DNA from: Amphibalanus amphitrite
Lineage: Eukaryota > Arthropoda > Thecostraca > Balanomorpha > Balanidae
Assembly: GCF_019059575.1 (NCBI RefSeq)
Contig: NW_024881619.1
Coordinates: 186,001 to 250,000 of the forward strand
Direction of reading: 5' to 3'
DNA length: 64,000 bases
Shown: positions 847 through 64,000 of the stretch, in pieces
Position numbering within the stretch: the stretch's first letter is position 1
Layout: every line of letters begins with the position of its first letter
Translations under genes and position numbers: made by a program
Notes under the pieces: generated by a model
Databases searched by the model: none
The model's input: only the letters and a program-made list of their open reading frames with translations
What the model was told of the DNA's origin: nothing

Positions 847-1764
847 CCCGCGAGTTGCTGGGGGGGGCGTTAAACGCCCCCACTTTTTTCGCCGGGCCAT
901 AGCATAAAAACGGCGCGCCGCAGGCGCGCCAAATTTTGGGTACCTGTAGGGAATTGATTGAAGTTTATTGTGACGAAGTTTCAAAAAAATCGGTCGGAAA
1001 ATTTTTGAGATATCGAGGTTTTAGTGACGTCATGATTTCTGAGTTTTCGACCAAAAACGGCATATGTTCAAAAAATCATATAAAATCACAGAATAGACAT
1101 ATAGACATGCCGTAAACGCCATTAGACTGCCAATACCATGGAAAATCAAATGGCTATCTTCGATTATTGATTATCGTTCCGCATTTTCCAAAATCTTGAA
1201 CTGAATCTTGGCAATTTCTCGTGACTACTTCACGACCATGATACATGAATTTCTTAAATTGAACTTTTTTAGCCAAACACGTACACATATGATAAAATGA
1301 ATGTCACCATCGTGTTCTACGCCCCAAATTACCCATAAAACATGTGTCACAGGCTGCGAATATCAGTTTTTATTTTCGGGGATATGTGCCTGCCCGGTTG
1401 ACCTGACCTTGACCCTGACCTATGCTTGACTGACCCCTGCATGGAGCTGACACTCTTGTAGGCCTTATATGATGGATTGTGCACCGTTTTGACAGAGTTT
1501 ATGACGAGAGGCGCCCATTGCGAAGTCCTGAAGTCCATGCTACTGAAAGCCCGATTTCAGGTGTTTGACCTGACCTTGACCTGACCTGTGACCTCAAAAT
1601 TCAACTTTAAAGTACTCATCTGAAGCGTCTCGTCGCGTTCTTTCGTTTGCCGCCTCGTGCGTTTCGCTGCGCCTATTGGTTCTCGAGTTATCGGCTGGGG
1701 GCGTTTAACGCCCCCCCCCCCCCCAGCAAACGGTGGGTGGCGAAATACCCCAGCAGCTGCCGGG
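847..1764. mobile_element. TTAA-flanked piggyBac-like non-autonomous element, copy 1
   Basis: TTAA at 843-846 and 1765-1768 flank a 918-bp unit that starts CCCGCGAG and ends CGGG. Subterminal hairpins lie at 860-881 (8 G, CGTTAAACG, C-run) and 1697-1724 (5 G, CGTTTAACG, 14 C). A GGCGCGC/GCGCGCC block at 911-937 recurs in copies 4 and 6. ACCCATAAAACATGTGTC at 1331-1348 recurs in copies 2, 4 and 12. TGACCT clusters lie at 1398-1421 and 1566-1592. There is no coding capacity, so a non-autonomous element is inferred. Confidence 0.75.
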
Positions 1765-1768
1765 TTAA

Positions 1769-2630
1769 GAGTTTGGACAGCGTACTACTCTAGCTGTGGT
1801 TCGAAGTTGAGGCAGACATATTTTACTTACTTGGTTTTGTCTGGATAATGAGCGCCCATAATAGGTTAAAACACATCTGCTTTACCTCAAAGCAGAGTTT
1901 TACTAGGAATAACAGTCACCCCCACCAGACATTCTGAACCACGGACAGCTTTGCTCTCTTGGCGTCAGTATATCCGATTCTACTGATTATTATGCCGGTA
2001 CGGTCTAAATTATGTATTAACCCTGACTCCGCTCACCGAAGCTACAGATTCCTTCGGCACGCACTCACGCAGATATCTGAGCGCGTGGCTCGCTGAGTAT
2101 CCGGGATGTATTATTCAGTAGGTCACGGCTCACGGATGTCCCTAGTGGGGTAAGTGCTCAGCTAAGTGGTGGCGTGTCGTCTGTCCGGTCTCCGTAAGTG
2201 ATCACCCGCTAGGTGTCCGATATCACTAATTCGTGATACGTCCCGGCTAAGAAGAGAATATGGACCGGACACCGTAGTAAAGAAAGTGTGGACAAATGGA
2301 TGGACAAAGCACCTTGAAAAGTCGTGCTGTAGTGAATCCGTGTTCAATGGTAGTTTTAGCGCTCGTCCCGTCTATTATCTGAATAGTAATGTAATCCGTA
2401 TAATTATGTAACGTGGAGTCGTCTCTTCATCCCTACCAAGCTGCCGGTGCCACGCTCTAATGTTACCCGTGATTGCTCCGAATGAATTAGAAATAAATAG
2501 CTGTGAATTTACCGGTCAAACCATAGATTCAAGCCGGATCTTTAAGCACGTCAATGCAAATGGCATTATACGGGGGTCTTTACACGGCCCAGAATCAGAT
2601 ATTTCGCGAGTGCAACGCACTCAGTGCCAG
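1769..2630. other. Unassigned intergenic or intronic DNA
   Basis: No coding region, RNA gene or paired inverted repeat was recognised. A TTAACCCTG at about 2017 resembles a TTAA-element start but has no G-run and no matching right end. Confidence 0.4.
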
Positions 2631-2634
2631 TTAA

Positions 2635-3807
2635 CCCGCGCGGGGCTGGGGTCTCCAGCCGAACGCGCGGGGCTGGGGGGGGGGGGTAAATTTTACCCCC
2701 CTGTTATCTCCCGAACTAATGGTCCGATTTGGAAAATTCAAACGCCAGTCGAAAGCTCTCATCACGAACAACTAAAAACATGTACTTAATTTAAAGTTTG
2801 AGGTCAAGGTCAAGGTCAGGTCAAGGGTACAAATTGCAAGTTTCTACAGTATCGGCCTTGCACCGTATGTAGTTGCCGAAGAATGGAGTCATAGACTGAG
2901 ACTGATTGCCCAAAACGTGTTCTTTGGCTACCAAGACAATATTCCTTGCATATGTTACCCATTTCATTAACATTCAGAGGTCAAGGTCAAGGTCAGGTCA
3001 GGTCAGGTCACCAAAAACAAAATATAGAAAAGGGCATGTGCGACACATGTTTTATGGGTCATTTTATTCATAGAATTCAATAGGCACACTCAATAGGTGA
3101 TATGGACCACATCTGGATGAATTTCAGGTCGAGGTCAGGTCAAGGTCAGGTCAAGTGAGGTCAAATCTTGAAGTTGGTTGTTAAGGCCTAAAAAGGTGTC
3201 TATGTGATGCAGTTTTTCACGGCGAATCGAATGGTGCTATTTTTCTTTCCGTACGAGGTCTAGAACTTCCAAAAAAAAACTCATTAAAAAAATTGTTTGT
3301 CGTGACGTGATAAAATTTTGAATAACTTCCACATTTTTGAACCGATTCTTCTAAAAATTGGTATGTAGGTGCACATGGACCACTTCTCTGACACATATCC
3401 CGATTTTTTCGATACACCCAAAATTTTGGATTTTATAATTATCTTCCCAAAAAGTCAGTTTCTTGAAAATAATTGGGCCAAAATCAATAATTTTCAAAAA
3501 ACCGAGATAGCCATTTGATAGACAAAGTAGAATCACGTATAACCTTTTTTGTTACGTCTTGATTCCCTTAAAAATGAAGATGTTAGCGGCGTTTGAAATT
3601 TTGCCTTTTTTGAGGCGAAAATGGCGAGCATGACGTCACTAAAACGTCATTTTCTCAACAAATTTCCGAAGGATTTCGCTCAAATTCTCAGGGAACGTGT
3701 CAAATTGATGTAAGAAAAGGTACTGAAAGTTGCGCCGCCGTTTTTCAGATATTGCAAAAATTCGCGAGGGGGGGTAAACTTTACCCCCGCCCCCAGCCCC
3801 GCGCGGG
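2635..3807 (+). mobile_element. TTAA-flanked piggyBac-like non-autonomous element, copy 2
   Basis: TTAA at 2631-2634 and 3808-3811 bound 1173 bp. The left end has a direct repeat of CGCGCGGGGCTGGGG (2637-2651 and 2664-2678). Next comes a hairpin of 12 G, TAAATTTTA and C-run at 2675-2701. The right end carries 7 G, TAAACTTTA and 5 C at 3768-3788, followed by a second C-run. AGGTCA arrays lie at 2801-2824, 2978-3010 and 3126-3163, mostly AGGTCA or AGGTCAA in direct repeat. It is closely related to copy 12 at 60466-61561, which lies in the opposite orientation. No transposase is encoded. Confidence 0.8.
2801..3163 (+). repeat. Three AGGTCA direct-repeat clusters inside copy 2
   Basis: The hexamer AGGTCA occurs 3-6 times per cluster at 2801-2824, 2978-3010 and 3126-3163. 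Many copies are preceded by TCA, giving TCAAGGTCA. AGGTCA is the consensus nuclear-receptor half-site, and TCAAGGTCA is the extended monomer site of FTZ-F1/ERR-type receptors. Binding here is inference only; the repeat itself is plain in the sequence. Confidence 0.7.
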
Positions 3808-4027
3808 TTAATCCTTTGCAGGAAATTAGCTTTCAGAAATAAAGGAGATATATGATTAGCAGAGAACAGCGATGTATTCATAGCATATATGTAGGTACAG
3901 CAGCTGTAGACTTTGGTATCCTATTTCAATATACCCTGGTGGTATCATCATTGGTATCATTACGAGCGAGCGAGCGCAGCGAGCGAAGTGAGTCTTTTCA
4001 ATATAACGGAAAAATCTCAGTATGAGC

Positions 4028-4051: not shown

Positions 4052-4509
4052 TGTAACGCTTTTGAGAGGCTTATATCTCAGCAACCGCTGGACCGATTGG
4101 CCTGCGGTCTTTTTTTGCTGGGTAGCCCATCCCTTCTACCCCGTAATTGACTACTTTTGATACATCTCAGTGACCGTCGTCGCACGTGCCACGTGAAAAG
4201 TCAAGGGTGTTCACTGTTCAAGCTGTTTTGCAAAAGTAGTGATTTTGAGAGGCTCATATCTCAGCAGCCGCTTGGGCGATTGTCTTGCAGTAATTTTTGT
4301 AGGGTAGCTGCATCCCTTCTACCAAAGGTCGGATACTCTTGATCTATGTGAGTGACCCCCAGTGCACGTGCAAAATACAACAATAAGAGGTGCCAAATTT
4401 GTTCCCATTTCAATAACTCGGTAATTACTGGGGCGATTTCGCTGACACTTGGCATACAGGTAGGCACCTACCAGGCAATGCATTCCCATGTGTTGCGGTT
4501 AGGGTGCTA

Positions 4510-4655
4510 CTGCACGTGCGCACGTGCAGGGGGCGCTCCCAGATCTCGAGAATGGCTGGGCCGATTGCGCTCAAATTTGGTACACGGTTGGGGACCAGTT
4601 AGTAGTGTGCCGTGCAAAAGTCAGTTTGGACCCCGTTTGCACGTGCGCACGTGCA
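4510..4655. repeat. Two CACGTG-rich palindromes in tandem units
   Basis: A perfect 20-base palindrome (CTGCACGTGC and its complement) lies at 4510-4529, and an 18-base version at 4638-4655. Each contains two CACGTG E-box cores. The palindromes sit between repeat units of the GAGCGAGCG element. Confidence 0.75.
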
Positions 4656-4836
4656 GAATGCCGCTTCCAGATCTCAGGAACGGCTGGGCCGATTGCGTTC
4701 AAATTTGGCACACCGCTAGCGACCGGTTAGAAGGGTGCTTTGCACAAGCCCGTTGAAAGTACCCTCTCGCCTTTCCGCACGTGCAGGGCTCACTATCTCG
4801 CTCGCTCGTTCTTCGCCCAAAAGGCGTTTTACTGGT

Positions 4837-6674: not shown

Positions 6675-6676
6675 TA

Positions 6677-7831: not shown

Positions 7832-7833
7832 TA

Positions 7834-16559: not shown

Positions 16560-16563
16560 TTAA

Positions 16564-17460
16564 CCCTCGCCCGCACATGGGGGGGGGGGGTTGCCACCCC
16601 CCCAGGTAGTCTTTCTGCTCTGCACTCAACATTTTTAGAGCTAGAAGGCTGATTTTTCGTATAGCTGCTCCTCTATCCTTTCTTGATGTCCACTGAAAAT
16701 TTCAAGTTTCTGTGGTTTTTGGTTTCGGAGATATGACCTTGTTTTTCAGGTCATGTCATGACCCAAATGGCCAATTTTCAACATCTTGCGTTGGCTATGG
16801 GCCTTGTGAGCTTCTGACGCCTTGATTTCGGCTTTTTTTGCCAGTCTTACCTCCCATCTATCATGGAACATGTTGTTCAACGATGTACAGATGTCAAGGT
16901 CAAGGTCAAGGTCAACCTAGGTCATCTAAGATAATTGCGTTTTAGGCAAGCGGAATTTACTTTTTGTGAATTTTTTTTGACTGCATTTTTGGTAAAAGCT
17001 TCTCAGATCATGATTTCATGTAATATGGACACATAAACAATCGGTGCACACATCAGTATACACACAGACACACACAGACATACAAACACATATAATTGAC
17101 CTTGACCTAACTTGACCTGAAATGACCTCAGCAGCAAAAACCTGGTCGGGTAGTGTGACAAAGAGGTTCTAGCTGGCTTGGCACCAGAAAACGGCATCGT
17201 CATCGGTATATGATAAGCAGCGCACTTGATATCCAGCGGTGACCCAAAACAGCAACATTTTTTAGTTTGACCTTACCTGGAAGGTCAATGACTGACCTGA
17301 GAAGGTAAAACTGGGTATCATTGGATTCGTCTCTTCCCAAAGAATCTTTCTGGTCTTTACCGCTAAGCTCTATCTCCAACAGGAACGAAATGGCGCGGGG
17401 GGGGTGGCAACCACCCCCATGTGCGTTCTAGGATGGGAAAATGGCATGTGCGGGCGAGGG
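16564..17460. mobile_element. TTAA-flanked piggyBac-like non-autonomous element, copy 3
   Basis: TTAA at 16560-16563 and 17461-17464 bounds 897 bp, starting CCCTCGCCCGCACATG and ending CATGTGCG...GGGCGAGGG. End hairpins: 12 G, TTGCCA, 7 C at 16579-16603, and 8 G, TGGCAACCA, C-run at 17397-17417. AGGTCA/TGACCT clusters lie near 16736-16764, 16895-16922, 17097-17130 and 17270-17302. No coding capacity. Confidence 0.8.
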
Positions 17461-17464
17461 TTAA

Positions 17465-21538: not shown

Positions 21539-21542
21539 TTAA

Positions 21543-22748
21543 CCCGCGCCCTGATAGGGGGGGCATTTTGGCCCCACTGTGGTTTTTCTTAAATAGCGAG
21601 AAAACAGCGGCGCGCAGCGCCGCCAAATTTTGTGTACCTTACCGGGCATCAATTTGACACCTTCACACAAAATTTCAAGTCACAGGTCACCTTAGGTCAG
21701 GAGTTATTGAGGTCAAACTGAGGTCATGTTCAAGTAAAAATGAGCAAAAAACATAACATCTTGAAACGCTCACCAATTCTACAGTTAACAAGCAATTTTA
21801 AAGTTCTTTATGTGGTTGTGTAGAGAAAAAACGGCGCTACAAAACTGGCATCTCGGATTTTCCAAATTTTGGAATTTTGACCCCCAAAAATCAAAAAATT
21901 GATTTTTTTAGAAAAACTAAAAAAATCATTTTTTTTCTCGAATTTCGAAAAAAACAGAATATATGTGATAGTCCCTGCTCTTCGATATACTTACCAAATT
22001 TGAGATCGATACCTCTTTTTTTGGCCAAGTTATAGCGAAAAAACTGTTAAAAATTGATGACGTCAAATTTTTTAACTCAATTTTTAGCAATTCTAGACGT
22101 CGTAGCGCTAAACAGAGACCACCATTGAACTCCCCGTGACGAGCTGCATCGAATCAATACCCATTTTATGCAAAATATCAACTTTGAAATTTGACTTAAT
22201 TTGACCTGACCTTGACCTGACCTTGACCTGACCTTGACCTGACCTTGACCTGACCTTGACCTGACCTTGACCAAAACGTGACCTAAGCTGGCCCTAAAGT
22301 CTGCCTGACCCACATAATCGCACTTGTCATGTAAAATGGACCATAAAACATGTATCACACGACACTTTCATATTGTGACCCCCCCCCCCCCCAGTGACCT
22401 GACCACTGTGACCTGACCTGGTATCAGTGACCTCAAATAGCAAAATATGTGTTTGAAGAACTTTTCCCCATCGATGATTTTCAATGAAATGCATTTTACT
22501 CGATTTTACAACGCATTTCTTGAAATGCCTGTAAACGGTGAAAATTCGACCTTTGACCTGACCTGTGACGTCATCGGTTTGACCGAGGTCAATGAAATTG
22601 GGTCACAAGGTAGTTCCTCGTTGGGACTATCCAACGCCGTTAACCGCTTGTCGCTATGTTGCGTGGTTCTCGAGATCTTAGGGGGGGGCCAAAATGCCCC
22701 CCCCCCCCATCAGACTGCGTTGCTCGGCAGACCCCATCAGGGCGCGGG
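21543..22748. mobile_element. TTAA-flanked piggyBac-like non-autonomous element, copy 4
   Basis: TTAA at 21539-21542 and 22749-22752 bounds 1206 bp. The left end is CCCGCGCCCTGATAGG and the right end is CCTGATGGGGTCTGCC after reversal, then GGGCGCGGG. Hairpins: 7 G, CATTTTGG, CCCC at 21557-21575, and 8 G, CCAAAATG, 12 C at 22681-22708. The GGCGCGC block lies at 21607-21631 and the ACATGT block at 22339-22356. A TGACCTGACCT tandem lies at 22203-22270. No coding capacity. Confidence 0.8.
22203..22270. repeat. 11-bp GACCTGACCTT tandem, about six copies
   Basis: GACCTGACCTT repeats head to tail, which is AGGTCAAGGTC on the minus strand. It is the most regular AGGTCA array in the window and lies inside TTAA element copy 4. 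The unit packs half-sites at alternating 0- and 1-base spacing. Confidence 0.9.
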
Positions 22749-22752
22749 TTAA

Positions 22753-24198
<1,446 letters not shown>

Positions 24199-24230
24199 AG
24201 AGGGAGAAGGAGAGGGAGGGAGAGAGAGAG

Positions 24231-27607: not shown

Positions 27608-27974
27608 CACTGTAAAAAAAATTCACTAGCTAATTTTGAAATTAGGCATTTTTTACGAGTGCCTTCCTTGCACCTCGTTACAACATATATGGACATTAGT
27701 AGTCAGAGCCATGCACGTTAACAATGCCCTTTGTGGAACAAATGCCTACGAGCGAGAGCATGTTCAGGAACCTAATTTTGCGCAATGTTAATGAACTACG
27801 CACAGCCTCACAGTGTTACCCGCCGTTGGCTTGTTCTCGGCCAGTTTTTGGCGTGTCCCTCAATTAGGTCATTTTGCTATTAGCTCAGCTGACGAGGCCC
27901 CGGCTGGCACCTACTAAACGGATAACCTTGCGTGCAATCCCGCTTGTTGTCACGAACGCCTGCAACTGGTAAAC

Positions 27975-28172
27975 GTGCTGGTAAGCTTGCGTGGTAAGCG
28001 GCTTCGGATGGCTATGAGGATGTGCCTCATAGCTATCCTCGTCGCATGTTACAACCTAGGAGTCTGTGGCTGCTTTCAGAAGGAGTCCCCCCCCCCGCAT
28101 CCGGGAGCCGGCGTCCATTTTGTGTTGCGTCGCCATTACTGTGTGTGTCTGCCCAACTGCTCTTTGGCTTGA
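27975..28172 (+). CDS. Small open frame with hydrophobic N-terminus inside element C2
   Basis: 65 codons. After a basic start (MLVSLRGKRLRMAMR) comes a hydrophobic stretch, CLIAILVACYNLGVCG, that could act as a signal peptide or membrane segment, then a proline-rich and cysteine-containing tail. The reversed copy C3 has an equivalent 66-codon frame with one extra residue. Both frames cross a 10-C run intact. The two copies are so similar overall that this is weak evidence for coding. No homologue is known to me. Confidence 0.15.
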   Translation: MLVSLRGKRLRMAMRMCLIAILVACYNLGVCGCFQKESPPPHPGAGVHFVLRRHYCVCLPNCSLA

Positions 28173-28614
28173 TTGAAGGTAAGGCATCTTGTATCATTTG
28201 CTGTGTGCTCAACAAAAAGGTTGTCCATTTGTAAACAGAAGTTATTATGTTGTTGAGCTTCTTAGAAGATGTATAGTATCGCATAATGTTGTCCGTCGTT
28301 GGCAGAAGTGCGCCGGTATCGTCTATCCAAGTCAGAATAGCTATATGTTTGGGACTTACGCTAGCTTGTGGCAGGAATATATCACTTTATTCAACTTTAA
28401 TTTAATCATTTTCCAGATTGGTATGCCTTATGATAATAATAATGTTAATATTGTTTTTTTCACCCATTACAGACTTCTCTGGTAAAGAATGGGGCCATGT
28501 ACATATGCCCTGGCCTACCTTCACCCCGCGACTGCCGCCGGTGCAGAGCTAATGAAAAATCACAAATGTTTGATGGTGGTTATTTAAGAAACCTGATTGC
28601 AAATTATTCAGTTA

Positions 28615-28615
28615 G

Positions 28616-28677
<62 letters not shown>
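28615..28677. repeat. (GTT)n microsatellite, about 21 units
   Basis: Uninterrupted GTT repeats inside C2. The C3 copy has an interrupted CAA run at about 29892-29957. Confidence 0.95.
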
Positions 28678-28810
28678 ATTGTTAAAGTTATAGTTATTGC
28701 CCTGGCGTTGTTATTGTTCTCGTTCTCGTTCTCGTGCCCGAATAAATGTGCTGCAGCGCTACTCAGTCTGTTTACTTGCGGGTGGCGGTCGAGAGTCGGG
28801 GGCACTGGTT

Positions 28811-28852
28811 GACGGAATTCCGTCGATGGAATTCCGTCGACGGAATTCCGTC
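28811..28852. repeat. Three tandem 14-bp palindromes
   Basis: GACGGAATTCCGTC, GATGGAATTCCGTC and GACGGAATTCCGTC follow directly on each other; the first and third are perfect palindromes. Element C3 has only two units at 29727-29754, so the number changes between copies. Confidence 0.9.
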
Positions 28853-28870
28853 GACCCAGTGCCGACCCCG

Positions 28871-28914
28871 AAGGCCAGTAGTGGTACTAGTTCACTAGTG
28901 CCACTACTGGCCTT
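28871..28914. repeat. 20-bp-arm inverted repeat
   Basis: AAGGCCAGTAGTGGTACTAG pairs with CTAGTGCCACTACTGGCCTT with one mismatch and a 4-base loop. A further CTAGTACCACTACTAGCCTT follows at about 28918-28937, so the unit is also repeated directly. Confidence 0.85.
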
Positions 28915-29222
28915 GAGCTAGTACCACTACTAGCCTTGGGGGCTAGTACAATTACTGGGTATGGATTAGTAGGCAGTGGCTAGTTACCTTACCAGGCAGG
29001 GGCTATTATGACACCTAGTAGACGCACTACCCACGCTATTTACGTGCGTGTTGTCAAACTAGGTGGAGCACGGTGGTCGTATGCATACGAGGCACAGCCT
29101 TGTCGAACAAGCTTGTTACTCGGCAACTAGCCTAAAATTAGCCAAATTTACACGCTCCTGCAATGTTATTTTTGCGCTGAGAATTCCTCTACGAGGGGCT
29201 TGTAAGTTTTTTTTACAGTGTG

Positions 29223-29347
29223 TGTGTCAAAAGTGGAAATAGCCGGTGCGCCGTCTGGCAACCCGGCAGCCCGCCGTCATAGGGAAATTCATGCTTTTTG
29301 TCGCTTTTTCGCTCCTTATGAGTCACTTGATCTAATTAGAGCTTAAC
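29223..29347. other. Spacer between inverted elements C2 and C3
   Basis: 125 bases of non-element DNA, the original flank of C1. TGTGTCAAAAGTGGAAATAG here (from about 29224) recurs reversed at about 31755-31778, so the flank itself belongs to a dispersed repeat. Confidence 0.6.
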
Positions 29348-29349
29348 TA

Positions 29350-29902
29350 CACTGTAAAAAAAAAACTTACAAGCCCCTCGTAGAGGAATTCTCAGCGCAA
29401 AAATAACATTGCAGGAGCGTGTAAATTTGGCTAATTTTAGGCTAGTTGCCGAGTAACAAGCTTGTTCGACAAGGCTGTGCCTCGTATGCATACGACCACC
29501 GTGCTCCACCTAGTTTGACAACACGCACGTAAATAGCGTGGGTAGTGCGTCTACTAGGTGTCAACTCATAATAGCCCCTGCCTGATAAGGTAACTAGCCA
29601 CTGCCTACTAATCCATACCCAGTAATTGTACTAGCCCCCAAGGCTAGTAGTGGTACTAGCTCAAGGCCAGTAGTGGCACTAGTTAACTAGTACCACTACT
29701 GGCCTTCGGGGTCGGGGGCACTGGTCGACGGAATTCCGTCGACGGAATTCCGTCAACCCAGTGCCCCCGACTCTCGACCGCCACCCGCAAGTAAACAGAC
29801 TGAGTAGCGCTGCAGCACATTTATTCGGGCACGAGAACGAGAACGAGAACAATAACAACGCCAGGACAATAATTATAACTTTAACAGCAGCAGCAACAAC
29901 AA

Positions 29903-29945
<43 letters not shown>

Positions 29946-35059: not shown

Positions 35060-35063
35060 TTAA

Positions 35064-35936
35064 CCCTATTAGTGGCAGGCTCCTGGCTACCCCCTATTAG
35101 TGGCAGGGGGGGGGGGCTGTTTACGACCCCCCCTTGATATCTCGAGATCTAACGGGTCGATTTTCAAAATTCAAACGGCATTCGATTTCGCTCAACGTGA
35201 TCTACATTTCTAAAAAATAAAAATTAAAAAAGTCAATAGGGGGGTTGAGGGGGGTAAAAACGGGCAAATTGCAGAAACATTTTAGACTGTTTATCACGGC
35301 CAGGTTTCTGAACCAATCTTAACGCAACTTTTGCCGATCGATAGAGAATGAACCAGGAATTCACATGGATCCTAAAAATATGCATTTTCAAAAATCATAG
35401 GCGGATACAGATCATTGAGATTGGGGGTACACAAAAAATATAGTAAATAAGGTTTTTGTTGGTACTGTTTCTAAAAAGGGTGGTAATGGTCTTGTTATGT
35501 TACAATTTTCTTATGAGAGAACGACTACAATTGTATTGGTCATGCATAGGCGGTGTCAGGGCACCTATGTTGGGAGGTAAAACATAACCCCCCTTTTTGG
35601 ACGCCTGGATCCGCCTATTATAGCAAAAACGTGTCAAAAGAGGATGTACAATAACTTTGTATATGTTATCACATGATACCTTTCATTCACTGTTCGGAAA
35701 ACTGGTGCAGCATCGTGATCTTCGCCCAAATGACTCGCTTCACGAATAGGACCCCCAATTCCCAGTGCTCTGGAGCCGCCCCTGGTAAAGTTATGAACTT
35801 GAAATTTTCAGGGAATGTGCCCAATTTAGTTTTAGGAAAAGTCAGAAAATTTCAGCATCGTAGCTTCAGCGGTTTCGGAGATATTCCCGAAAAACCTGAG
35901 GGGTGGATAAAAACAACCCCCCTGCCACTAATAGGG
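35064..35936. mobile_element. TTAA-flanked element, copy 5, without AGGTCA arrays
   Basis: TTAA at 35060-35063 and 35937-35940 bounds 873 bp with ends CCCTATTAGTGGCAGG and CCTGCCACTAATAGGG. CTATTAGTGGCAGG is repeated at the left end, and the second copy runs into a hairpin of 11 G, CTGTTTACGA and 7 C at 35106-35133. The right end has only GGGG and 6 C. No AGGTCA cluster was seen, unlike most of the family. The block after the left hairpin (ATCTCGAGATCTAACGGGTC) resembles copies 2 and 9. Confidence 0.75.
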
Positions 35937-35940
35937 TTAA

Positions 35941-36413: not shown

Positions 36414-36417
36414 TTAA

Positions 36418-38378
36418 CCCTCGCCCTGGCAGGGCATTTTTCATAACACGGCCTGGCAGGGGGGGGGGTCGATGCGACCCCCCCTCGCGATTGGCTCCTA
36501 TGGCACCTAGAAACACCAAATTTGGTAGGTAGGTGGGCCCCCTGGAGTTCTCGCCCCTGTGCAAATTTGGTTGCTCTAGGTCAATATTTAGGGGGGTTTT
36601 GGGGGGTATAAATGTAAAAATTTCGCTAAAAACAGGTCAAAAGTGTTTTGCTTATAACTTTTGATCTAATTAAGATAGAGCAAAACGAAAAGCACCAGTG
36701 AACTCAGCACGTCAAGGCGCGTCGAATGATATAGGGGAGACCCGGGAGGTATGGGCCGGTTTTGTGAAAAGGCAATTTTCTTCCAGTGGGCAGTGGCTAG
36801 ACCCGTTTTTTCACTCTGTGCACGTGAAATTGCCTTTCGCCTGCAAAGTGTGCCTGATATTAGGCATCTGGGATCAACTATTTTGTCTCGAGATAACTTT
36901 CAATAAATCATGTGCTTTTTCGATCCATCAAAATACACCGGGAGGTATGGGCCATGGCCCGGGAGGTATGGACCGGTGCCATGTTTTATATTCTTTTCTC
37001 GACAATGAGAACAATACTCGTAGCTGGTATCTACCTTGATCTCTCTTAGAGCCCAGGAACCGCATAAGCGGCCAACAGCTTACTTCATGGAGGTCACTTT
37101 GGGCACATATGTATTTTGGTAAACTCAATCATGCACCATGAAATAAAATGAGTAATATTTTTCTGTTCGAATGAAATTTGAAGTTAAATTTTCAACCATA
37201 CGCGACAAAAATAAAACTTATTGAAGATGGCACTCAATGAAAGCATCTTTTTATTGATTTAGGATCAACGGGGCTGGGTGGCCCGAACCTCCCGGTTAGG
37301 ACGCCAGAATTTGCGTAGCATCTCAGCTCATAATCTTGCAAGAAAGCTTCAAATTGTCCATCCAGTCTTGATTTGCATGCTTTAAACTTTATGTTAGCAT
37401 TGGTCTGACATCATAAAACGAGCCTGGTTCAAATTTATCACGAATTATCTGTATGTAGAGTATTTTACTCGAAGAGGGCAAAAACGCTTTATCACCGCTT
37501 ATTGCCAAAGAAGATTGAGGAAGAATGTGAAAATCACATGGGTTGTATAACGGAATGGCTGCTACCAGTTTACACGGTCAAACGTGTAAAAATACGCAAC
37601 ACTTCTTCAAAACTGCGATGGCCCATACCTCCAGGGGGCCCATACCTCCCGGGTCTCCCCTACTTTTTAGCTTGCTTAAGTGTACTTAAAGTTTTTCTTA
37701 AATTTTAAGCAAACTTAAATTAATAAATTAAGTTCAGGTTAACCAAATTGCATCATATCGCATATCATTCGATTCGGCTGATCACCAGGAACACAATGAT
37801 ACCATTTTTTAAGCTCTAGCGTCATTATGTGCCAAGTTATTGGCAAAAACGTCATTTGATCTCAGTTGACCTCATTTGACCTGACCCATGGATAAGTACA
37901 CCAAACAAAGAAGCACCAAGTGACCTGCTGTTAAGTACCGTGGTTTCAAAGCAGAAAAGTGATAGAACGAAGCGGATATCTCCAGTATTTTCCGAATTTA
38001 GCATTTTCCCATAGGCTTAACATTACGACGTAGTAACCTCTAACTGACCTCAGGTCAGTTACCTCAAAAAAGCCGGACTATATGTTATGCAACTCGGTGA
38101 ACTTAGCACATCCTGAAAGTTTGAAGGAAATCAGTCGAAAACTGTGAGCTGGACTGGTGCAAAAAGAAAATTGAAATTTGACCGTGACCTTGTACCGGTT
38201 TTTCTGACCTGGCGACCTGACCTAAGGTCACCCGGACCTGAAATTTTCAGGTCATATGTAAAATGGTTGCCCCATAGGCTGTGCCAAATTTGGTGGCGCT
38301 GCGCGCCGCCATTTTTACGCTATCTTCGAAAAACCGTAGGGGGGGTTGCATTGACCCCCCCCCCTGCCAGGGCGAGGG
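36418..38378. mobile_element. TTAA-flanked element, copy 6, interrupted by a nested MITE
   Basis: TTAA at 36414-36417 and 38379-38382 bounds 1961 bp with ends CCCTCGCCCTGGCAGG and CCTGCCAGGGCGAGGG. Hairpins: 10 G, TCGATGCGA, 7 C at 36459-36484, and 7 G, TTGCATTGA, 10 C at 38339-38364. Without the nested M2 element (36734-37660 plus one TA), the host is about 1032 bp. A TCGAATGA box lies at 36722-36729, GCATATCATTCGATTCGGC at 37760-37778, and GCGCGCC near 38300. TGACCT clusters lie at 37865-37890, 38045-38072 and 38181-38232. Confidence 0.8.
36734..37660. mobile_element. TA-flanked GGGGA-ended MITE, copy M2, nested in copy 6
   Basis: TA at 36732-36733 and 37661-37662 flanks 927 bp. The ends are GGGGAGACCCGGGAGGTATG and its reverse. 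The core CCGGGAGGTATGG recurs inside at 36939-36955 and 36958-36974 (direct), with a reversed variant at 37280-37295, and is doubled at the right end. Removing it restores GAATGATATACTTTTT, identical to the matching site in copy 10 (about 54221-54237), so the insertion and its TA duplication are directly demonstrated. Confidence 0.85.
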
Positions 38379-38382
38379 TTAA

Positions 38383-43655: not shown

Positions 43656-43659
43656 TTAA

Positions 43660-44755
43660 CCCGCGCCCCACTGGGGTCCTGGATTTCCACGCCCTGCTGG
43701 GGAGTGTTTGAACACCCCCGCTCTGAAAGAGCGTCAGAAAAAATGAAGAAATTACTCAAGTCACTTTTTTGGTCAGGTCAAAGGTCAAGTCACCAGAGGT
43801 CATTGAAGGCAAAAACTCGCCGATTTCCAGATCAAATTTCGACAGCTTTCAACAAATCGACGCACAGCTCGGAAACTAATAGAGCTATAGCGCCGCAGAA
43901 AGGCGCATTTGATAGCCCTATTAGCGCCCTTTCTGAGCAATTCTCTCATATTTGACTTCCGTCAACGGTTTTGCCTGCAGATGGCAAAAACTGTCAAAAT
44001 AGACTTTTTCGGAAACAGTTTTTGTGTAATAACGTTTGACTCAAACCTCGCACAAAGTTTCTTTTACCAGCATCGTATTTCTCTCGTCAAGACGCATCGA
44101 ATGAACTATCATTTGACCATTTTAAGTGGACCTTTCAGGTCCACTTAAAATGTGACCTCAGGTCAAAGTCATGACCTGACCGGTAAGGGTCACCTTGCAT
44201 ATCAGTTGATCTGTATGTTCGAGCCAAACACAACTAAGGTGCTTTCATTCCTCTAGCATGCCTCTATCAAAAGTAATTTGCGAGAAAAAAAAAACTGTCA
44301 GCTACCATTCGTGACCTGAGATGACCCCAGGGACATAAGAAGGGGTCACGGGTGCCATTTTCATGTTCAGTGTGTTAAAGTTACTTGTAATTCGGTGTTT
44401 GGGAGTGTTTATAATGTCTTCCGTCCAAAAGAGGCGCATTTCAAATTTTTCCAATTGACTTATAATGGAGAGGTCGCAAAATTGACCTAACCTTAGGTCA
44501 CCGATATAATTCCGAGATATACATCTCGCGCACATACTGTTGCTTTTATCAATCGCTGCGAGTTTCAAAGCGATCGGTCACTCGGTGTAGCTATGCTATG
44601 GCAGACATTGAAAGTTTTTTTATGTAGTGAGATCACTTGACGTGACCTGGCGACCTGACCTTAAGTGACCTGGGTCTGAAATTTTCACGTGCAAAAAAGA
44701 TGTATGATAAGGTGTACCAAAAACTGCGGCGCCTAATAATTTCAAAATTACTTAA
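43660..44755 (+). mobile_element. TTAA-flanked element, copy 7, right end eroded
   Basis: TTAA at 43656-43659, start CCCGCGCCCCACTGGGGTCC, then a weak hairpin GGGG-AGTGTTTGAACAC-CCCC at 43699-43719. It is homologous to copy 13 at 63476 in the same orientation. A TCGAATGA box at 44096-44103 is followed by a perfect hairpin at 44118-44152. TGACCT/AGGTCA clusters lie around 43771-43803, 44155-44182 and 44638-44672. The final part has a TGCGGCGCC-like remnant (about 44726-44734) but no GGGTTAA, so the right border is approximate. Confidence 0.65.
44118..44152. repeat. Perfect hairpin with 16-bp stem inside copy 7
   Basis: CATTTTAAGTGGACCT, loop TTC, AGGTCCACTTAAAATG. It lies just after the TCGAATGA box. 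Copies 8, 10, 11 and 13 have differently sequenced hairpins in the equivalent place. Confidence 0.9.
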
Positions 44756-53099: not shown

Positions 53100-53654
53100 A
53101 TACTCCCGTTACGCGTTGGGGGGGGGGGGGGTGCGTTTCGGCCCCCTCAGATCTCGAAAAATTACCGGTCGGTTTTAAAAATTCAAGCGGCGTTCGATTG
53201 TGCCATCAGGGCCAAGTGCCAAGTGCCTTGTGACCTTGTGACCAAGTGCCGTTGACCTAGGTGCAACCGATAACGCCACAGGTCAGGTCAAAGGTCGCAT
53301 TTTTCACCGATTACGGGCCTTCTAAGGAATGCGTAACGGATTTGTATAGTCCTGTTGATTTAACACCTTTTTAACTTATACATTTTTTTCTATTTCCAGA
53401 ACTGTAGGCGTGACGGCTCTTCCCGCAAAACTTTTTTTGGATCGAAGATGGCAGAACATGACGTCACTGACGCCGTTTGCGGCCAGCCTATCATAGGCTT
53501 TGGAAAAAAAATCGGTCACAAGGTATAAAATTGATGCTCGATGGGGTCCTGAAAGTTTCGTGGCGATTTCTGCTAGCTTTGGGAGATATCGACTGAAAAA
53601 TAAAGGTGGGGCGTTTGCCCCTCCCCCTCCCCCTCCTTCACAACGGGACGCGGG
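53100..53654. mobile_element. TTAA-type element, copy 9, left end lost
   Basis: The right end GGGACGCGGG is followed by TTAA at 53655-53658. On the left a run of 14 G (53118-53131), TGCGTTTCGG and CCCCC forms the usual hairpin, and the right has GGTGGGGCGTTTGCCCCTCC. No TTAACCC is visible on the left; the start is approximate. AGGTCA sites lie near 53281-53297. ATCTCGAAAAATTACCGGTC after the hairpin matches the block in copies 2 and 5. Confidence 0.6.
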
Positions 53655-53658
53655 TTAA

Positions 53659-53914: not shown

Positions 53915-53918
53915 TTAA

Positions 53919-54954
53919 CCCTCGCCGGACCTATTGGTTTTCTACATACGCGCCGGCCGAGGGGGGGGGGGGGCGGGTACGACCCCCCCCTCGCCGTTTC
54001 GCCCCTGGTGGAGCTAGCGCGTCGCGGAAAAAAACGAGCGTGTGCGCCGTTACGAGACGCAGAGATTGGTACCCGATTTTAAGGTCCCAGGTCAACCGGT
54101 GACCTCTGAGGTCAGGTCAAGTGCCCCAAGGTACGGTTCAGTTTTTGGTGAATAACTTCGCAAAAAACGGTCGCAGAGCGCCGATTTTGGCAGCATCGTG
54201 TTCGTCTCGCTCAGGCGCGTCGAATGATATACTTTTTGTCCGGGTCAGGTGAACTTGGGGTGTTGACCTCAGGTCAAGGTCAGGTCAGCACCCCCAGGCC
54301 ACGAAGTTGGTCGAAAGAGGTCATGTCGCATATCATTCGGTTCGGCAGGTCTTCCTGAGTCCATTGGTGGCTTTCCCGACTCGCTAGCTCAATTTGACCA
54401 AGAGTTATTGATGAAAAACTAATATGACCTTGATGACGTCATAAATGACGTCACGCAAGGTCAACATTGTAAAAGTGACGCATCTAACCTTGCAAGGAGT
54501 GCATCAAATCACGATTCTGTGTGCTTGAGATAGTTGGAGATCGTTCCCGGCGCCAGAATAGCAATTTGAATTTTTCCCCATTGACTTATAATGGTGAGGT
54601 CACGAAAATGACCTGACCTCATATGACCTTTAGGAAAAATCCGAGATATACAAGTTGTGGGACTCATAATGGATACTAGATCCTGCAAGTTTCATTTCCC
54701 TGTGACATCTCCTCTGGCAGTGAGGGCGTTGCGAAGTTGCGACATCTGAAGACCGTGCAGAGGTTCACTTATGACGTCATAGGTCAGTGACCTGACCTGA
54801 CTTTAAAATGCGGTTGGTGTCAAAAGATGCGGCTTGGATCAAAGGTCAGGTATGCCAAGTTTCAGCTCTCTATCGCCAGCGTGTTCGGAGCTATCGCGAA
54901 AAAAACCCTATGGGGGGGCGGCACCCGCCCCCCCCCCCCCTCGGCCGGCGAGGG
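53919..54954 (+). mobile_element. TTAA-flanked element, copy 10
   Basis: TTAA at 53915-53918 and 54955-54958 bounds 1036 bp. Start CCCTCGCCGGACCTATTGG, end CGGCCGGCGAGGG. Hairpins: 13 G, CGGGTACGA, 8 C at 53961-53990, and 7 G, CGGCACCCG, 13 C at 54912-54940. The box GGCGCGTCGAATGATAT is at 54214-54230, an AGGTCA hairpin at 54257-54294, and GCATATCATTCGGTTCGGC at 54328-54346. AGGTCA/TGACCT occurs throughout. Nearly identical, reversed, to copy 11. Confidence 0.85.
54257..54294. repeat. AGGTCA hairpin inside copy 10
   Basis: GGGGTGTTGACCT pairs with AGGTCAGCACCCC (one T-G wobble) around a 12-base loop that itself contains AGGTCAAGGTC. Copy 11 has the matching stem at 56500-56537. Confidence 0.85.
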
Positions 54955-54958
54955 TTAA

Positions 54959-55839: not shown

Positions 55840-55843
55840 TTAA

Positions 55844-56876
55844 CCCTCGCCGGCCGAGGGGGGGGGGCGGGTGCCGCCCCCCCATAGGGTTTTTTCGCGA
55901 TAGCTCCGAACACGCTGGCGATAGAGAGCTGAAACTTGGCATACCTGACCTTTGATCCAAGCCGCATCTTTTGACACCAACCGCATTTTTGGGCCAGGTC
56001 AGGTCACTGACCTATGACGTCATAAGTGAACCTCTGCACGGTCTTCAGATGTCGCAACTTCGCAACGCCCTCACTGCCAGAGGAGATGTCACAGGGAAAT
56101 GAAACTTGCAGGATCTAGTATCCATTATGATTCCCACAACTTGTATATCTCGGATTTTTCCTAAAGGTCATATGAGGTCAGGTCATTTTCGTGACCTCAC
56201 CATTATAAGTCAATGGGGAAAAATTCAAACTGCTATTCTGGCGCCGGGAACGATCTCCAACTATCTCAAGCACACAGAATCGTGATTTTATGCACTCCTT
56301 GCAAGGTTAGATGCGTCACTTATGCAATGTTGACCTTGCGTGACGTCATTTATGACGTCATCAAGGTCATATTAGTTTTTCGTCAATAACTCTTGATCAA
56401 ATTGAGCAAGCGAGTCGAGAAAGCCACCAATGGACTCAGGAAGACCTGCCGAATCGAATGATATGCGACATGACCTCTTTCGACCAACTTCGTGACCTGG
56501 GGGTGCTGACCTGACCTTGACCTGAGGTCAACACCCCAATTTGACCTGACCCGGACAAAAAGTATATCATTCGACGCGCCTGAGCGAGGCGAACACGATG
56601 CTGCCAAAATCGCGGCTCTGCGGCCGTTTTTTTGCGAAGTTATTCACCAAAAACTGAGCCGTACCCTGGGGCACTTGACCTGACCTCAGAGGTCACCGGT
56701 TGACCTAGGACCTTAAAATCGGGTACCAATCGCTGCGTCTTGTAACGGCGCACACGCTCGTTTTTTCCGCGACGCGCTAGCTCCACCAGGGGCGAAACGG
56801 CGAGGGGGGGTCGTACCCGCCCCCCCCCCCCCCCTCGGCCGGCGCGTATGTAGAAAATCAATAGGTCCGGCGAGGG
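55844..56876 (-). mobile_element. TTAA-flanked element, copy 11, inverted twin of copy 10
   Basis: TTAA at 55840-55843 and 56877-56880 bounds 1033 bp. Hairpins: 10 G ... 7 C at 55858-55883, and 7 G, TCGTACCCG, 15 C at 56804-56834. Read on the minus strand, it follows copy 10 block by block with only scattered substitutions, including the box at 56563-56580, the AGGTCA hairpin at 56500-56537 and the GCATATCATTCGATTCGGC block at 56448-56466. The high similarity suggests a recent copy. Confidence 0.85.
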
Positions 56877-56880
56877 TTAA

Positions 56881-60440: not shown

Positions 60441-60465
60441 GAGACCAAGATTTCACCAAGATTAA

Positions 60466-61561
60466 CCCGCGCGGGGCTGGGGGGGGGGGGTAAATTTTAC
60501 CCCCCCCCCCCCCGCGAATTTTGCAATATCTCAAAGCCGCCAAACTTTCAGTACCTTTTCTTACATCAATTTGACACGTTCCCTGAAAATTTGAGCGAAA
60601 TCCGTCGGAAATTTTTTGAGAAATTGACGTTTTAGTGACGTCATGTTCGCCATTTTCGCCTCAAAAACAGCAAAAGTCCAAACGCCGCTAACATCTTCAT
60701 TTTTAAAGGAATCAAGACGTAACAAAAAAGGACATACGTAATTCTACTTTGTCTATCAAATGGCTATCTCGGTTTTTTGAAAATTTTGGATTTTGGCCCA
60801 AATTAAAAAAACTGACTTTTTTAGGAAAATAGGTAGCTATAAAATCCAAAATTTTGAGTGTATCAAAAAAACCGGAATATATGTCAGAGAAGTGGTCTAT
60901 GTGTACCTACATACCAAGTTTTAGAAGAATCTGTTCAAAAATGTGGGAGTTATTCAAAATTGTATGACGTCACGACACACAAAATCTTGGAAAAATGACT
61001 TTTTTGGAAGTTCTAGACCTCGTACGGAAACCAACTTCAAAATTTGACCTCACTTGACCTGACCTTAACCTGACCTCGACCTGAAATTCATCCAAAGGTG
61101 GTCCATATCACTTATTGAGTGTGCCTATTGAATTCTATGAGTAAAATGACCCATAAAACATGTGTCGCACATGCCCTTTTCTATATTTTGTTTTTGGTGA
61201 CCTGACCTGACCTGACCTGACCTTGACCTTGACCTCTGAATGATATTGTATGCAACGAATATTGTCTTGGTAGCCTAAGAACACGTTTTGGGCGATCAGT
61301 CTCAGTCCATGACTCCATTCTTCGGCAACTACGGTGTAAGGCCGATACTGTAGGAACTTGCAATTTGTACCCTTGACCTGACCTTGACCTTGACCTCAAA
61401 CTTAAAATTAAGTACATGTTTTTAGTTGTTCGTGATGAGATCTTTCGATTGGCGTTTGAATTTTCCAAATCGGACCATTAGTTCGGGAGATAACAGGGGG
61501 GTAAAATTTACCCCCCCCCCCAGCCCCGCGCGTTCGGCTGGAGACCCCAGCCCCGCGCGGG
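60466..61561 (-). mobile_element. TTAA-flanked element, copy 12, inverted relative of copy 2
   Basis: TTAA at 60462-60465 and 61562-61565 bounds 1096 bp. Hairpins: 12 G, TAAATTTTA, 14 C at 60479-60513, and 6 G, TAAAATTTA, 11 C at 61496-61521. The right end has the doubled CCCCAGCCCCGCGCG seen in copy 2. TGACCT clusters lie at 61045-61083, 61198-61233 and 61373-61397. GACCCATAAAACATGTGTC is at 61148-61166. It matches copy 2 in reverse. Confidence 0.8.
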
Positions 61562-61565
61562 TTAA

Positions 61566-62455
61566 GCATGTGACTCACGATTGTATTTAGCCAAGACGTT
61601 TTATCAAGAGAAACCAAGTCTGAAGGCAGAAACCAATATATGTACAAAGTGCTATGTAAATACGCCTTTCCGAATCGAATTATACATGCATAAGGTGACT
61701 TTCTGTCCAAGCCTTTGAACCCACGAGACGCTTCAGACTAATGCTTTGATTTTGCTTTTGAATGTTTTATCATGTGTTTGAATGCTGGCTGAGAATATCA
61801 TTTGTTTTATATACCCCGTGCCATTTGCCAAATGTAACATAGATAGGTAACTATAAATAGGCAATAGTATAAAAATGAGATCTTGCCTTGATATGCTGTT
61901 CACCTAGCACTTGCTATATGTTGTATGTTGGAATAAAGTGATTAGATTACTGGTGCCGTTCGAAGCATACGTCAATGGAACGATGTGTTTGGTGTAAAAC
62001 AAGCAAAGAGTATTAAAGAAGTTATGGAATTTTAGTGTCTTCCAAAGTACCGAGAAGTAGCTAGTGCATAATGAATTAAATTAAGATATATAACTAGTCT
62101 ATGTTGCGGCTCTCAATTAGTAGATTTTTAACACTTCATTTCGAGTCGTGCCTGAAAGTACCACACTTCTTTAGTTCTTGCCTGGCGCAAACAATCTGTC
62201 CAAGAATGCAACTGCAAGAAAATGACGCGATGAAGCATTGGTTAACTGATTAAGAAAGAGATTGTGATGCTTCCTTACATGTGGTAGCGCAACAATAAGG
62301 GGAACTCCAACATGAGGGAAAATGACCAAGCACTTTCGTCGTCTAAAGTAGTTAAAAGTAAGCGTAAAATAAGCGTATTTTATTTTAGCCATATCATAGT
62401 CTCTGAGAACCCCGTAAAAACCCCTAAAGGATTCTTTGGATAAACAATGTATTTG
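61566..62455. other. Unassigned AT-rich DNA
   Basis: No gene recognised. The minus frame 62171-62554 runs into the next repeat and has no family resemblance. Confidence 0.4.
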
Positions 62456-63136
62456 ACCAGTATAGCGCCTTTTGGGGCGACTAACGGAGCGAGCGAGAGG
62501 GTGAGCCTTGCACGTGCGAAATTTCGAGGGGGTACCTCCAACTGACTTGTGCACGGCACCCTACTAACCGGTCTCTAGCGATGTGCCAAATTTGAGCACA
62601 ATCGGCCCAGCCGTTCTCGAGATCTGGAAGCGGCACCCTGCACGTGCGCACGTGCAGAATGGGTCCCAACTGACTTGTGCACGGCACCCTACTAACTGGT
62701 CCCTAACCGTGTACCAAATTTGAGCGCCATCGGTCCAGCCGTTCTCGAGATCTGGAAACGACCCCTGCACGTGCGCACGTGCAGCAGCACCCCAACTCTG
62801 GCACATGGATATGCAGTGCCTAGTGGGTGCCTACCTACATGCCAACTTTCAGCGCAATCGGCCAAGTAGTTACCGAGATATTGCAACAATTCCAAAACTG
62901 ACACCTCTTCGTTTTGCGCGTGGCACGTGCATAAGGGGTCACCCACATGCATCGGGAATAGTCCAATACTTGGTAGAAGGAATGAAGCTACCCTACAAAA
63001 ATTACCCCGTGTAAATCGGTCAAGTGGTTGCTGAGACATAAGCCTCGCAAAAGCGTCCGCACGGCCGGCCGGCCGCTCATACTCAGAAATTTCCGTTAAT
63101 CTAAGGAAAGACTACGCTCGCTTCGCTCGCTCCGTA
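62456..63136 (-). mobile_element. GAGCGAGCG-ended element with CACGTG palindromes, copy B
   Basis: Homologous to copy A (3960-4836) in reverse. The ends ACGGAGCGAGCGAG and CTCGCTTCGCTCGCTCCGT mark it. Palindromes CTGCACGTGCGCACGTGCAG lie at 62638-62657 and 62765-62784. The repeat word GCCGTTCTCGAGATCTGG occurs at about 62611-62628 and 62737-62754. GGCCGGCCGGCC lies at 63063-63074. Minus-strand frames here repeat a LENGWADCAQIW-like peptide, an artefact of the tandem units. Confidence 0.6.
62638..62784. repeat. Two perfect 20-base CACGTG palindromes, 127 bases apart
   Basis: CTGCACGTGCGCACGTGCAG at 62638-62657 and 62765-62784, identical to the one at 4510-4529 in copy A. Confidence 0.9.
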
Positions 63137-63471
63137 ATAACGTAATGGTTGAATGCAGAGTTCGTCGGGTACTTTTGATTGTATTTGCTTTCACAGCTAC
63201 CGCATTTGTTCAGTTTAGTAGTAGTATTAACATAAAGCATGAAACGATATCTGCGGTTCGGAAAAAACATGGTCTACACTTTTCTTCTGTGACACAAAAT
63301 TTAACTATGAACATAGTGCGACATATTTTCGCCAAGAAATCGTCTATAAACCTTGAATTTTTACCCTGGTAGCAAGTTGCGATCATTTTTGGCCTAATCA
63401 TGGCAATCACCTGTTGCTACGGATCATGTATCGACATTTAGCATATGAATAGTCCGTTTTGTGTAGTGATT
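63137..63471. other. Unassigned spacer
   Basis: A plus frame at 63145-63372 (75 codons) starts with a hydrophobic stretch but is opposed by a minus frame and not recognisable. Confidence 0.35.
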
Positions 63472-63475
63472 TTAA

Positions 63476-64000
63476 CCCGCGCCCGGCTGGGGGTCCTGGA
63501 TTTCCACGCCCTGCTGGGGGGGGGTGTTTGAACACCCCCCCTTGTAACTCGGCTCCTGGGCCACGTAGCGATACGCGGAAGGCGGCGTTCGAAAGAGCGT
63601 CAAAAATAATGACGAAATCACTTCGGTCAATTTTTGGTCAGGTCAAAGGTCAGGTCACCAGAGGTCATAGAAGGCAAAATTTCGCCGATTTCCAGGTCGA
63701 ATGTCGAAAATTTCCAAGAAGCCAACGCATAACTCGGGAACCAATAGAGCTACAGCGCCGCGGAAAAGCGCATTCGATAGCCCTATTAACGCCCTTTCTG
63801 AGTAATTCTCTCAGATTTGACCTAACGTCAACGGTTTTGCCTACAGGGGGCAAAAACTGCAAAAATAGCCGATTTTTTCGGAAACAGTTTTTCTGCAATA
63901 ACTTTTGACCCAAGCATTGTACGAGCTTACTTTTACCGGCATCGTGTTCCTCTCGTCAAGACGCATCGAATGAATTACAACTTGACCTTGAAAGGTCAAC
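63476..64000 (+). mobile_element. TTAA-flanked element, copy 13, cut by window end
   Basis: TTAA at 63472-63475, start CCCGCGCCCGGCTGGGGGTC. Hairpin of 9 G, TGTTTGAACA, 7 C at 63516-63541. Homologous to copy 7, better preserved at the left. AGGTCA sites lie at about 63638-63667. The box GACGCATCGAATGA at 63960-63973 is followed by the hairpin TTGACCTT-GA-AAGGTCAA at 63982-63999. The right end is outside. Confidence 0.75.

Follow-up and report, generated by a model that had tools for sequence, protein, structure and literature searches.

The Elements of the Window

The stretch of DNA analysed here, called the window, comprises 64,000 nucleotides of Amphibalanus amphitrite (NCBI RefSeq assembly GCF_019059575.1, contig NW_024881619.1, forward strand), and is C122:186001-250000 of an 807-Mb genome. 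It carries nine complete TTAA-flanked elements of 0.9-2.0 kb each with both ends present, together with one element cut by the window end and some degraded remains. The ends of the elements share a common order, in which TTAA is followed by CCC, a tip motif, a G-run, a ~9-nt centre and a C-run, with the long end having in addition a spacer and a second copy of the tip motif before the G-run. These are very probably non-autonomous piggyBac elements of the Trichoplusia ni type, with the palindrome formed by G-run, centre and C-run representing the internal repeat of piggyBac in a poly-G form, a putative site for a dimer of the cysteine-rich domain of the transposase.

An earlier note on the window had described TTAA elements with such G-run, centre and C-run ends, a description that is borne out in the window, in a wider sample and by counts across the genome. 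Its figure of at least 13 elements is reached if degraded and cut copies are included, but the complete ones number nine. Most ends do start with CCC, as it had reported, and some with CCT, although CC at the tip was itself part of the pattern used to search for ends. The features are given below, where the short end is the left end (LE), the long end is the right end (RE) and offsets are the distance in bp from TTAA to the G-run.

843..1768, + strand: complete non-autonomous piggyBac-like element; short end (LE) left, offset 13; long end (RE) right, offset 40; centre CGTTAAACG
2631..3811, - strand: complete element with the long end on the left (offset 40) and the short end on the right (offset 13); centres TAAATTTTA / TAAAGTTTA
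16560..17464, + strand: complete element with offsets of 15 (short) and 42 (long); the centre is TTGCCA at the short end and TGGTTGCCA at the long end
21539..22752, + strand: complete element; short 14, long 40; centre CATTTTGG; 24 AGGTCA sites
35060..35940, - strand: complete element with offsets of 42 (long) and 14 (short); the palindrome of the short end is degraded, and GGGGGG doublets stand in place of AGGTCA sites, of which there are none
36414..38382, - strand: complete element of 1969 bp; long 41, short 14
53915..54958, - strand: complete element; long 42, short 14; centres CGGGTACGA (RE) and CGGGTGCCG (LE)
55840..56880, + strand: complete element, second copy of the 53915 family; short 14, long 42
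60462..61565, + strand: complete element, second copy of the 2631 family; short 13, long 40
43656..43719, - strand: long-type end with broken runs (GGGG AGTGTTTGAACA CCCCC); a search for its mate found none
53118..53146, no strand assigned: orphan palindrome G14..C5 that has no TTAA where one would be expected; it may belong to a degraded element extending to GGGTTAA at 53655
63472..64000, - strand: end of the long type with an offset of 40 and centre TGTTTGAACA, from an element truncated where the window stops
53655 and 51585: degraded tips

Abundance and Orientation of the Palindromes

Within the window the first pattern for a G-run, centre and C-run gave 18 rows, with those at 53118 and 53126 being one palindrome, and the reversed order of C-run before G-run gave no matches. 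A stricter pattern requiring at least six G and six C was found 13 times, compared to a mean of 0.0 when the sequence was resampled 30 times under a Markov model. Across the genome G7N9C6 was found 62,035 times on the + strand and the reversed pattern 499 times, more than 100-fold rarer, with both figures including overlapping starts. The runs themselves vary from ~5 to 15 nt, a wider range than the 7-14 previously given for the G-run, with a median of 11 for the outer run and 7 for the inner run. The length of the G-run differs even between copies that are ~99% identical; it may be tolerated at various lengths, or may slip after insertion.

In public collections viral contigs matched the short-end pattern at 5 places and the long-end pattern at 3, and prokaryote contigs matched the short-end pattern at 40. 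The five viral short-end matches were rejected as relatives, as by judgement their sequences resemble terminator hairpins.

Spacing of the Short and Long Ends

The distance from TTAA to the G-run is not spread over the 20-120 bases that had been described for each end, it is two-valued. For comparison the window was combined with ten 10-kb stretches picked by contig position only, regardless of the feature, to give a sample of 164 kb. Amongst 36 ends in this sample 14 have an offset of 12-15 bp, one of 27 bp and 21 of 37-43 bp, one of the 37-bp offsets arising by chance from an inner TTAACC at 22640. TTAA lies 12-15 or 37-43 bp away from each of the 23 strict palindromes of the sample, compared to 9.3% of random positions in the window. 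The two ends of an element differ by a fixed ~27 bp, a difference that had been overlooked.

One short and one long end are found in 20/20 complete elements, a set of 11 tip types, two of them nearly alike, so that the elements are not independent. The set was reduced from 24 rows by dropping C1173:496, which is the left end of another element and pairs 41/41, C527 (the same as L119), L052 (the same as L051) and L076, which is enlarged by a nested element and has offsets of 40/13 that would agree with the rule.

The genome scan that the earlier note had proposed was run for the short and intermediate spacings, and the random placement of palindromes relative to TTAA was not borne out. On the + strand the short spacing (10-17 bp) was found 19,649 times and its reversed control twice, with 559 and 22 the respective numbers for the intermediate spacing (19-36 bp). 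Of the intermediates listed, many are short ends in which the run is broken or which have a second TTAACC close by. Reverse-strand counts were not used, as each C-run was counted several times, and from strand symmetry we infer ~39,000 short ends in the genome.

The extra length of the long end has a definite form. In 21 deduplicated long ends, reduced by similarity from 32 with the chance one at 22640 retained, the 7 nt before the G-run recur 27 bp upstream in the same element with 72% identity. When the 27-bp shift is made against other elements the identity is 34%, and at every other shift from 8 to 33 it is 20-37%. Between subfamilies, therefore, the two copies of the motif change in concert.

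The Palindrome Centre

The near-palindromic centre had been reported to differ between copies; it differs by subfamily and is palindromic mainly in its outer three pairs. For all distinct 9-nt centres in hand, the unpicked figure, 41/60 mirrored pairs are complementary. In 21 centres from 23 end types, which were chosen by eye from ~100 rows listed by the genome scan for short ends as one clean form per tip and are biased to clean palindromes, the pairs are complementary, going inward, in 21/21, 19/21, 15/21 and 8/21 cases, a total of 64/90. When halves were exchanged between types in 2000 trials the mean was 32.6 and the maximum 52. Omitted from the picked centres were mutated variants and at least two types with shorter centres (CGAAACGG and GCAAAGG). 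The covariation of the outer pairs therefore suggests a half-site that consists of the G-run and about three covarying bases, and covariation between halves is what a protein dimer would impose. Base composition of the 21 hand-picked centres is 58% A/T, with CGGGTGCCG being G/C-rich.

Some regularity is also apparent in how the two ends of an element differ. The right-end centre terminates in TACGA in the long ends at window positions 35060, 53915 and 56877 and in L096 and L119, and in the families 53915/55840 and C527, for which both ends are cleanly read, the left half of the RE centre is the LE centre. The 36414 element is an exception to the TACGA and left-half rule.

Autonomous Copies and their Transposase

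The earlier note had suggested looking for an autonomous copy with a DDE transposase between such ends, and one is found for one end type. Three copies, C527, C44 and C1173, of 3971-3977 bp and ~99% identical, lie in different surroundings and contain a piggyBac transposase gene between G-run ends. In each the LE, with an offset of 14, is on the 5' side of the gene and the RE, with an offset of 41, is on the 3' side. T. ni piggyBac has its LE 5' and its RE 3' of its gene. The LE of this family is TTAACCCTAGAACGCCTA-G-TTGTATCAA-C, with C1173 slightly different, and the RE is TCGCACGACCA...CGACCA-G-TTGTTACGA-C.

The protein of C527, P0001 (646 aa), matches PF13843 (Pfam DDE_Tnp_1_7) at 2.2e-69, and its residues 89-638 match the T. 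ni transposase 6X67 at 2e-78, cysteine-rich tail included. This alignment reaches the last CxxC, where P0001 has ~15 extra residues, and P0001 is predicted to carry, at residues ~585-646, a C-terminal cysteine-rich domain of the T. ni type. Against piggyBat (9C0F) the match is 3e-30 and the alignment stops before the cysteine-rich tail. The aspartates of P0001 that align with those of T. ni lie within TVDETLRAYRGR, TADRFYSSV and GGVDTVDQM and are presumably the catalytic ones.

Links from the autonomous family to shorter elements are found at two places. A 2183-bp element, L088:5346-7528, has ends in common with C527, aligning over 396 bp at 97% and 303 bp at 95%, with a middle of ~1.5 kb that does not align to C527, and would be a non-autonomous relative with the same ends rather than a plain deletion. 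Within the window the RE of 36414-38382 (36414-36484) is 78% identical to the autonomous RE over 73 columns.

The genome has at least 116 scored matches to PF13843, of 232 candidates, and 47 stretches were read (30 loci and 17 3' flanks), of which two, the flanks L097 and L099, have G-run ends and belong to the family of C527, C44 and C1173. The 30 loci, drawn from the best matches, were considered as the autonomous partner and rejected, as the TTAACC ends that could be seen beside the gene are TTAACCCATTA[G/A]..., TTAACCCTTTACCGGGC, TTAACCCAGATCTGCCC or similar and lack a G-run. Palindrome matches do occur in nine of the 30 (L058, L065, L068, L070, L071, L074, L076, L077 and L079); those at L070, L076, L077 and L079 are part of short elements that adjoin or enclose the gene. 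Amongst the 3' flanks, a palindrome in L105 is that of a neighbour.

Other piggyBac families of the genome, at L070-L080 and L085-L086, have open frames of 604 aa and 569 aa and ends of TTAACCCATTAGTGCC. Many of their copies score the same or almost the same, and those whose cysteine tail was read (L074, L080 and L085) have a tail of a different kind; these families look recently active. At L076:7-3825 a short element of the CCATTTTGG family has apparently grown through the nesting, at TTAA, of a 2.68-kb piggyBac that carries a transposase. A head-to-head pair of elements with one common TTAA lies at L119:174-260, and near 3428 in L114 the right TTAA of an autonomous copy is common to another short element.

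Insertion at TTAA

TTAA is present at both ends in all 20 complete elements, although TTAA was itself part of the element search. An empty site was also found, as L090:1828-1991 is a relative of the repeat that holds the 1141-bp element L089:6508-7648 and has a single TTAA at the insertion point, the flanks aligning over 177 columns with an identity of 80% and some small gaps. This is one case on a paralogous copy, the sole spanning match of a joined-flank search, and the duplication of TTAA, for which an empty-site comparison had been proposed, is not refuted by it. Together with the autonomous copies and the matches to PF13843 and 6X67, this one empty site supports the original assignment to piggyBac.

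Comparison with Known piggyBac Ends

In T. ni piggyBac a 19-bp palindromic internal repeat is bound by the cysteine-rich domain of the transposase (PMC7351741), with a dimer of the domain binding bp 17-33; it bends the DNA by ~40 degrees, and around bp 25 the minor groove becomes narrower (Chen et al. 2020, PMC7351741). The unequal ends of piggyBac are described as puzzling, and the insertion of 5 bp between the two tip motifs of the RE is reported to impair T. ni piggyBac (PMC7351741). From the ends as printed elsewhere, the tip motif is at 6 in the LE and at 6 and 33 in the RE, a 27-bp repeat, and the palindromes start at 16 and 44 (PMC3078864).

The likeness of the elements here to T. ni piggyBac (LE35/RE63; 6X67/6X68) covers the TTAA target, the CCC tip, a palindromic internal repeat by both ends, the short and long ends, an identical repeat of the RE tip motif at 27 bp and the similarity of the transposase over nearly its whole length, including the cysteine-rich domain. 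The palindrome starts at 12-15 and 37-43 bp here, the two ends differing by 27-28 bp as a rule, compared to 16 and 44 bp in T. ni piggyBac. The half-sites are TGCGT/ACGCA in T. ni, whereas here they are G-runs with a variable triplet, and unlike T. ni piggyBac there are some twenty thousand or more non-autonomous copies, more than 20 end types and phased internal clusters of AGGTCA.

A dimer of the C-terminal domain of piggyBat, from Myotis lucifugus (9C0F), binds an imperfect palindrome after the tip motif (PMC11707139, PMC13405395), and piggyBat shares with the elements here the superfamily, TTAA and a tip motif followed by an imperfect palindrome. Its LE, unlike the ends here, has motif and palindrome three times in 44-bp steps and its RE is without such a palindrome, and the fold of its C-terminal domain differs from the T. 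ni type. By eye, several intact piggyBacs of this genome that lack G-runs have tails more like the piggyBat type. The CMITEs of Acropora (PMC2872659) are also short piggyBac-derived TTAA elements with differing tips and a shared unexplained feature, but they are ~100 bp with a conserved internal region and the word 'palindrome' is absent from that text. In open-licence PMC text no title or abstract describing these ends was found when poly-G or quadruplex features of piggyBac ends, or palindromes in TTAA elements, were looked for.

A Possible Mechanism and its Alternatives

Several functions had been suggested for the palindromes. Recognition by the transposase is favoured because the position, the left/right asymmetry, the 27-bp repeat of the motif and the covariation across the dyad match the internal repeat of T. 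ni piggyBac, whereas quadruplex formation, strand opening and protection of the ends gained no support. To judge by its position and by the dyad covariation, the palindrome would be bound by a dimer of the C-terminal cysteine-rich domain of the transposase, with each half-site being the G-run and the subfamily triplet. In the RE, where the tip motif occurs twice 27 bp apart and the palindrome lies 27-28 bp deeper, analogy with models of piggyBac and piggyBat that involve two dimers suggests that the catalytic dimer may use the outer copy and a further dimer, not itself catalytic, the inner one. A precedent is the preprint on the piggyBat transpososome, which has an outer catalytic and an inner non-catalytic dimer (PMC13405395). 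Such an arrangement may lead to one LE and one RE pairing productively. The G-tract, centre and C-tract could also suit the entry of a domain into two major grooves, with a narrowing of the minor groove that separates these, although this readout of shape is speculative. The other subfamilies may be mobilised by relatives of P0001.

A number of points weigh against the T. ni-type interpretation. The phasing of tip to palindrome is loose, with centres at medians of 28.5 and 56 bp (23 and 31 ends) compared to 24.5 and 52.5 in T. ni, ~3.5-4 bp deeper, and G-runs of variable length. In some subfamilies the RE centre is asymmetric (TTGTTACGA, CGGGTACGA), and the A/T excess of the centres is slight and only weakly favours shape readout. 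The autonomous family carries one end type only (tips CTAGAACGCCTA / TCGCACGACCA), and none of the transposases in the 47 PF13843 stretches could be linked to the subfamilies with CCCGCG or CCCGGC tips. At the loci L060, L068, L082 and L084, and in eight of the 17 3' flanks, the gene showed no TTAACC end, and the palindrome near L068 could not be assigned. Furthermore, the genome-wide spacing counts cover only the short and intermediate classes.

The first alternative is that the G- and C-runs act as DNA structure, be it cruciform, quadruplex or triplex, that aids strand opening or shields the ends. The extreme length of the runs and their almost invariable order of G before C would suit this, but the position and the LE/RE asymmetry match a known protein site, with the repeat of the motif matching to the base pair. 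The triplet beside the run also covaries across the dyad and differs by subfamily, which a quadruplex would not need. A single G-run needs more length than most runs here to form a quadruplex alone. A structural role is very improbable.

It could also be that the G-runs are passive, being homopolymers that grew by slippage within an otherwise normal piggyBac palindrome and are propagated with each copy, and both the differing run lengths of nearly identical copies and the greater length of the outer runs point in this direction. Slippage accounts for variation in length, it does not account for retention, and no fewer than 23 end types of differing tip sequence, the autonomous family included, have kept both runs. 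Passive runs seem very improbable as an explanation. The least probable alternative is that only the CTAGAACG/TCGCACGACCA family is piggyBac, with the families of CCCGCG and CCCGGC tips dependent on a different transposase that targets TTAA, of the Kolobok or Sola type (Kolobok and Sola3 prefer TTAA). In its favour, no transposase was tied to these families here, with no search aimed at Kolobok or Sola made, but they have in common with the autonomous piggyBac family the CCC tip, the pair of offsets, the 27-bp motif repeat and the G-run palindrome.

Clusters of AGGTCA within the Elements

A second feature common to the elements, without explanation here, is phased arrays of AGGTCA, which is a half-site of many nuclear receptors. 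The density of AGGTCA is 12.5 per kb inside ten elements of the window and 1.1 per kb outside. In 18/20 elements the cluster nearest the RE has its middle 177-195 bp from the right end, for example in window 55840-56880 and 21539-22752 and in L119:215-4185, and the two exceptions without AGGTCA clusters, 35060 and L116, are both of the TATTAGTGGCA family. Further clusters of AGGTCA/TGACCT follow inward at a spacing of ~170-185 bp, with 41/58 gaps being 140-200 bp.

The autonomous element has AGGTCA clusters too, partly in ~187-bp tandem units (87% identical) of its 5' part. Mere tandem duplication as the source of the periodicity is therefore partly true for this family, and was otherwise set aside as the interiors of most tip types are unalike. 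When the 300 bp inside the right ends of 11 tip types were compared, alignments (E up to 0.01) were only 14-33 nt, except for CCCGGCAGCT/CCCGGCAGTT and CCCGCGCCCT/CCCGGCAGGC, and most of these short alignments, not all, are on AGGTCA clusters. Within the 164-kb sample 35 of 70 clusters of at least three AGGTCA are in complete elements; of the other 35, 16 are within 500 bp of a palindrome and 19 are not, some of the latter being in degraded elements such as 43656.

Other Features of the Window

A tract of GA dinucleotides of 232 bp lies at 23999-24230. At 27631-30943 there is a 3.3-kb inverted repeat with arms of ~1.6 kb that are mostly 95-99% complementary in pieces, which has CACTGTAAAAAAA near both ends and tandem GACGGAATTCCGTC and GTT/AAC units within, and is a foldback-like element. 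Inverted copies of another repeat are found at 4334-4807 and 62487-62960, with direct units 128 bp apart that contain ATCTCGAGAA; a phrase resembling ATCTCGAGAA comes after the right-end palindrome in several G-run families. Scans of the window with Rfam, at gathering level, and for tRNA gave no matches.

Implications

A far broader proposal would be of a whole piggyBac radiation in which the synapsis site is a code, made up of a shape-read G-tract, a three-base word for the subfamily and a 27-bp short/long rule comparable to the 12/23 rule in V(D)J recombination. The AGGTCA arrays, with their constant distance of ~180 bp to the right end and a repeat close to nucleosome spacing, would let a host protein that binds AGGTCA set nucleosomes and keep the ends open to the transposase. 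As a whole this is tentative and we regard it as unlikely. The same 27-bp geometry is kept across many end types whilst the tip and palindrome change, which is natural evidence that spacing matters more than letters. With the subfamily triplets as ready-made material it could be studied how the specificity of the C-terminal domain shifts, which would be of use for gene-delivery tools that have to avoid cross-reaction.

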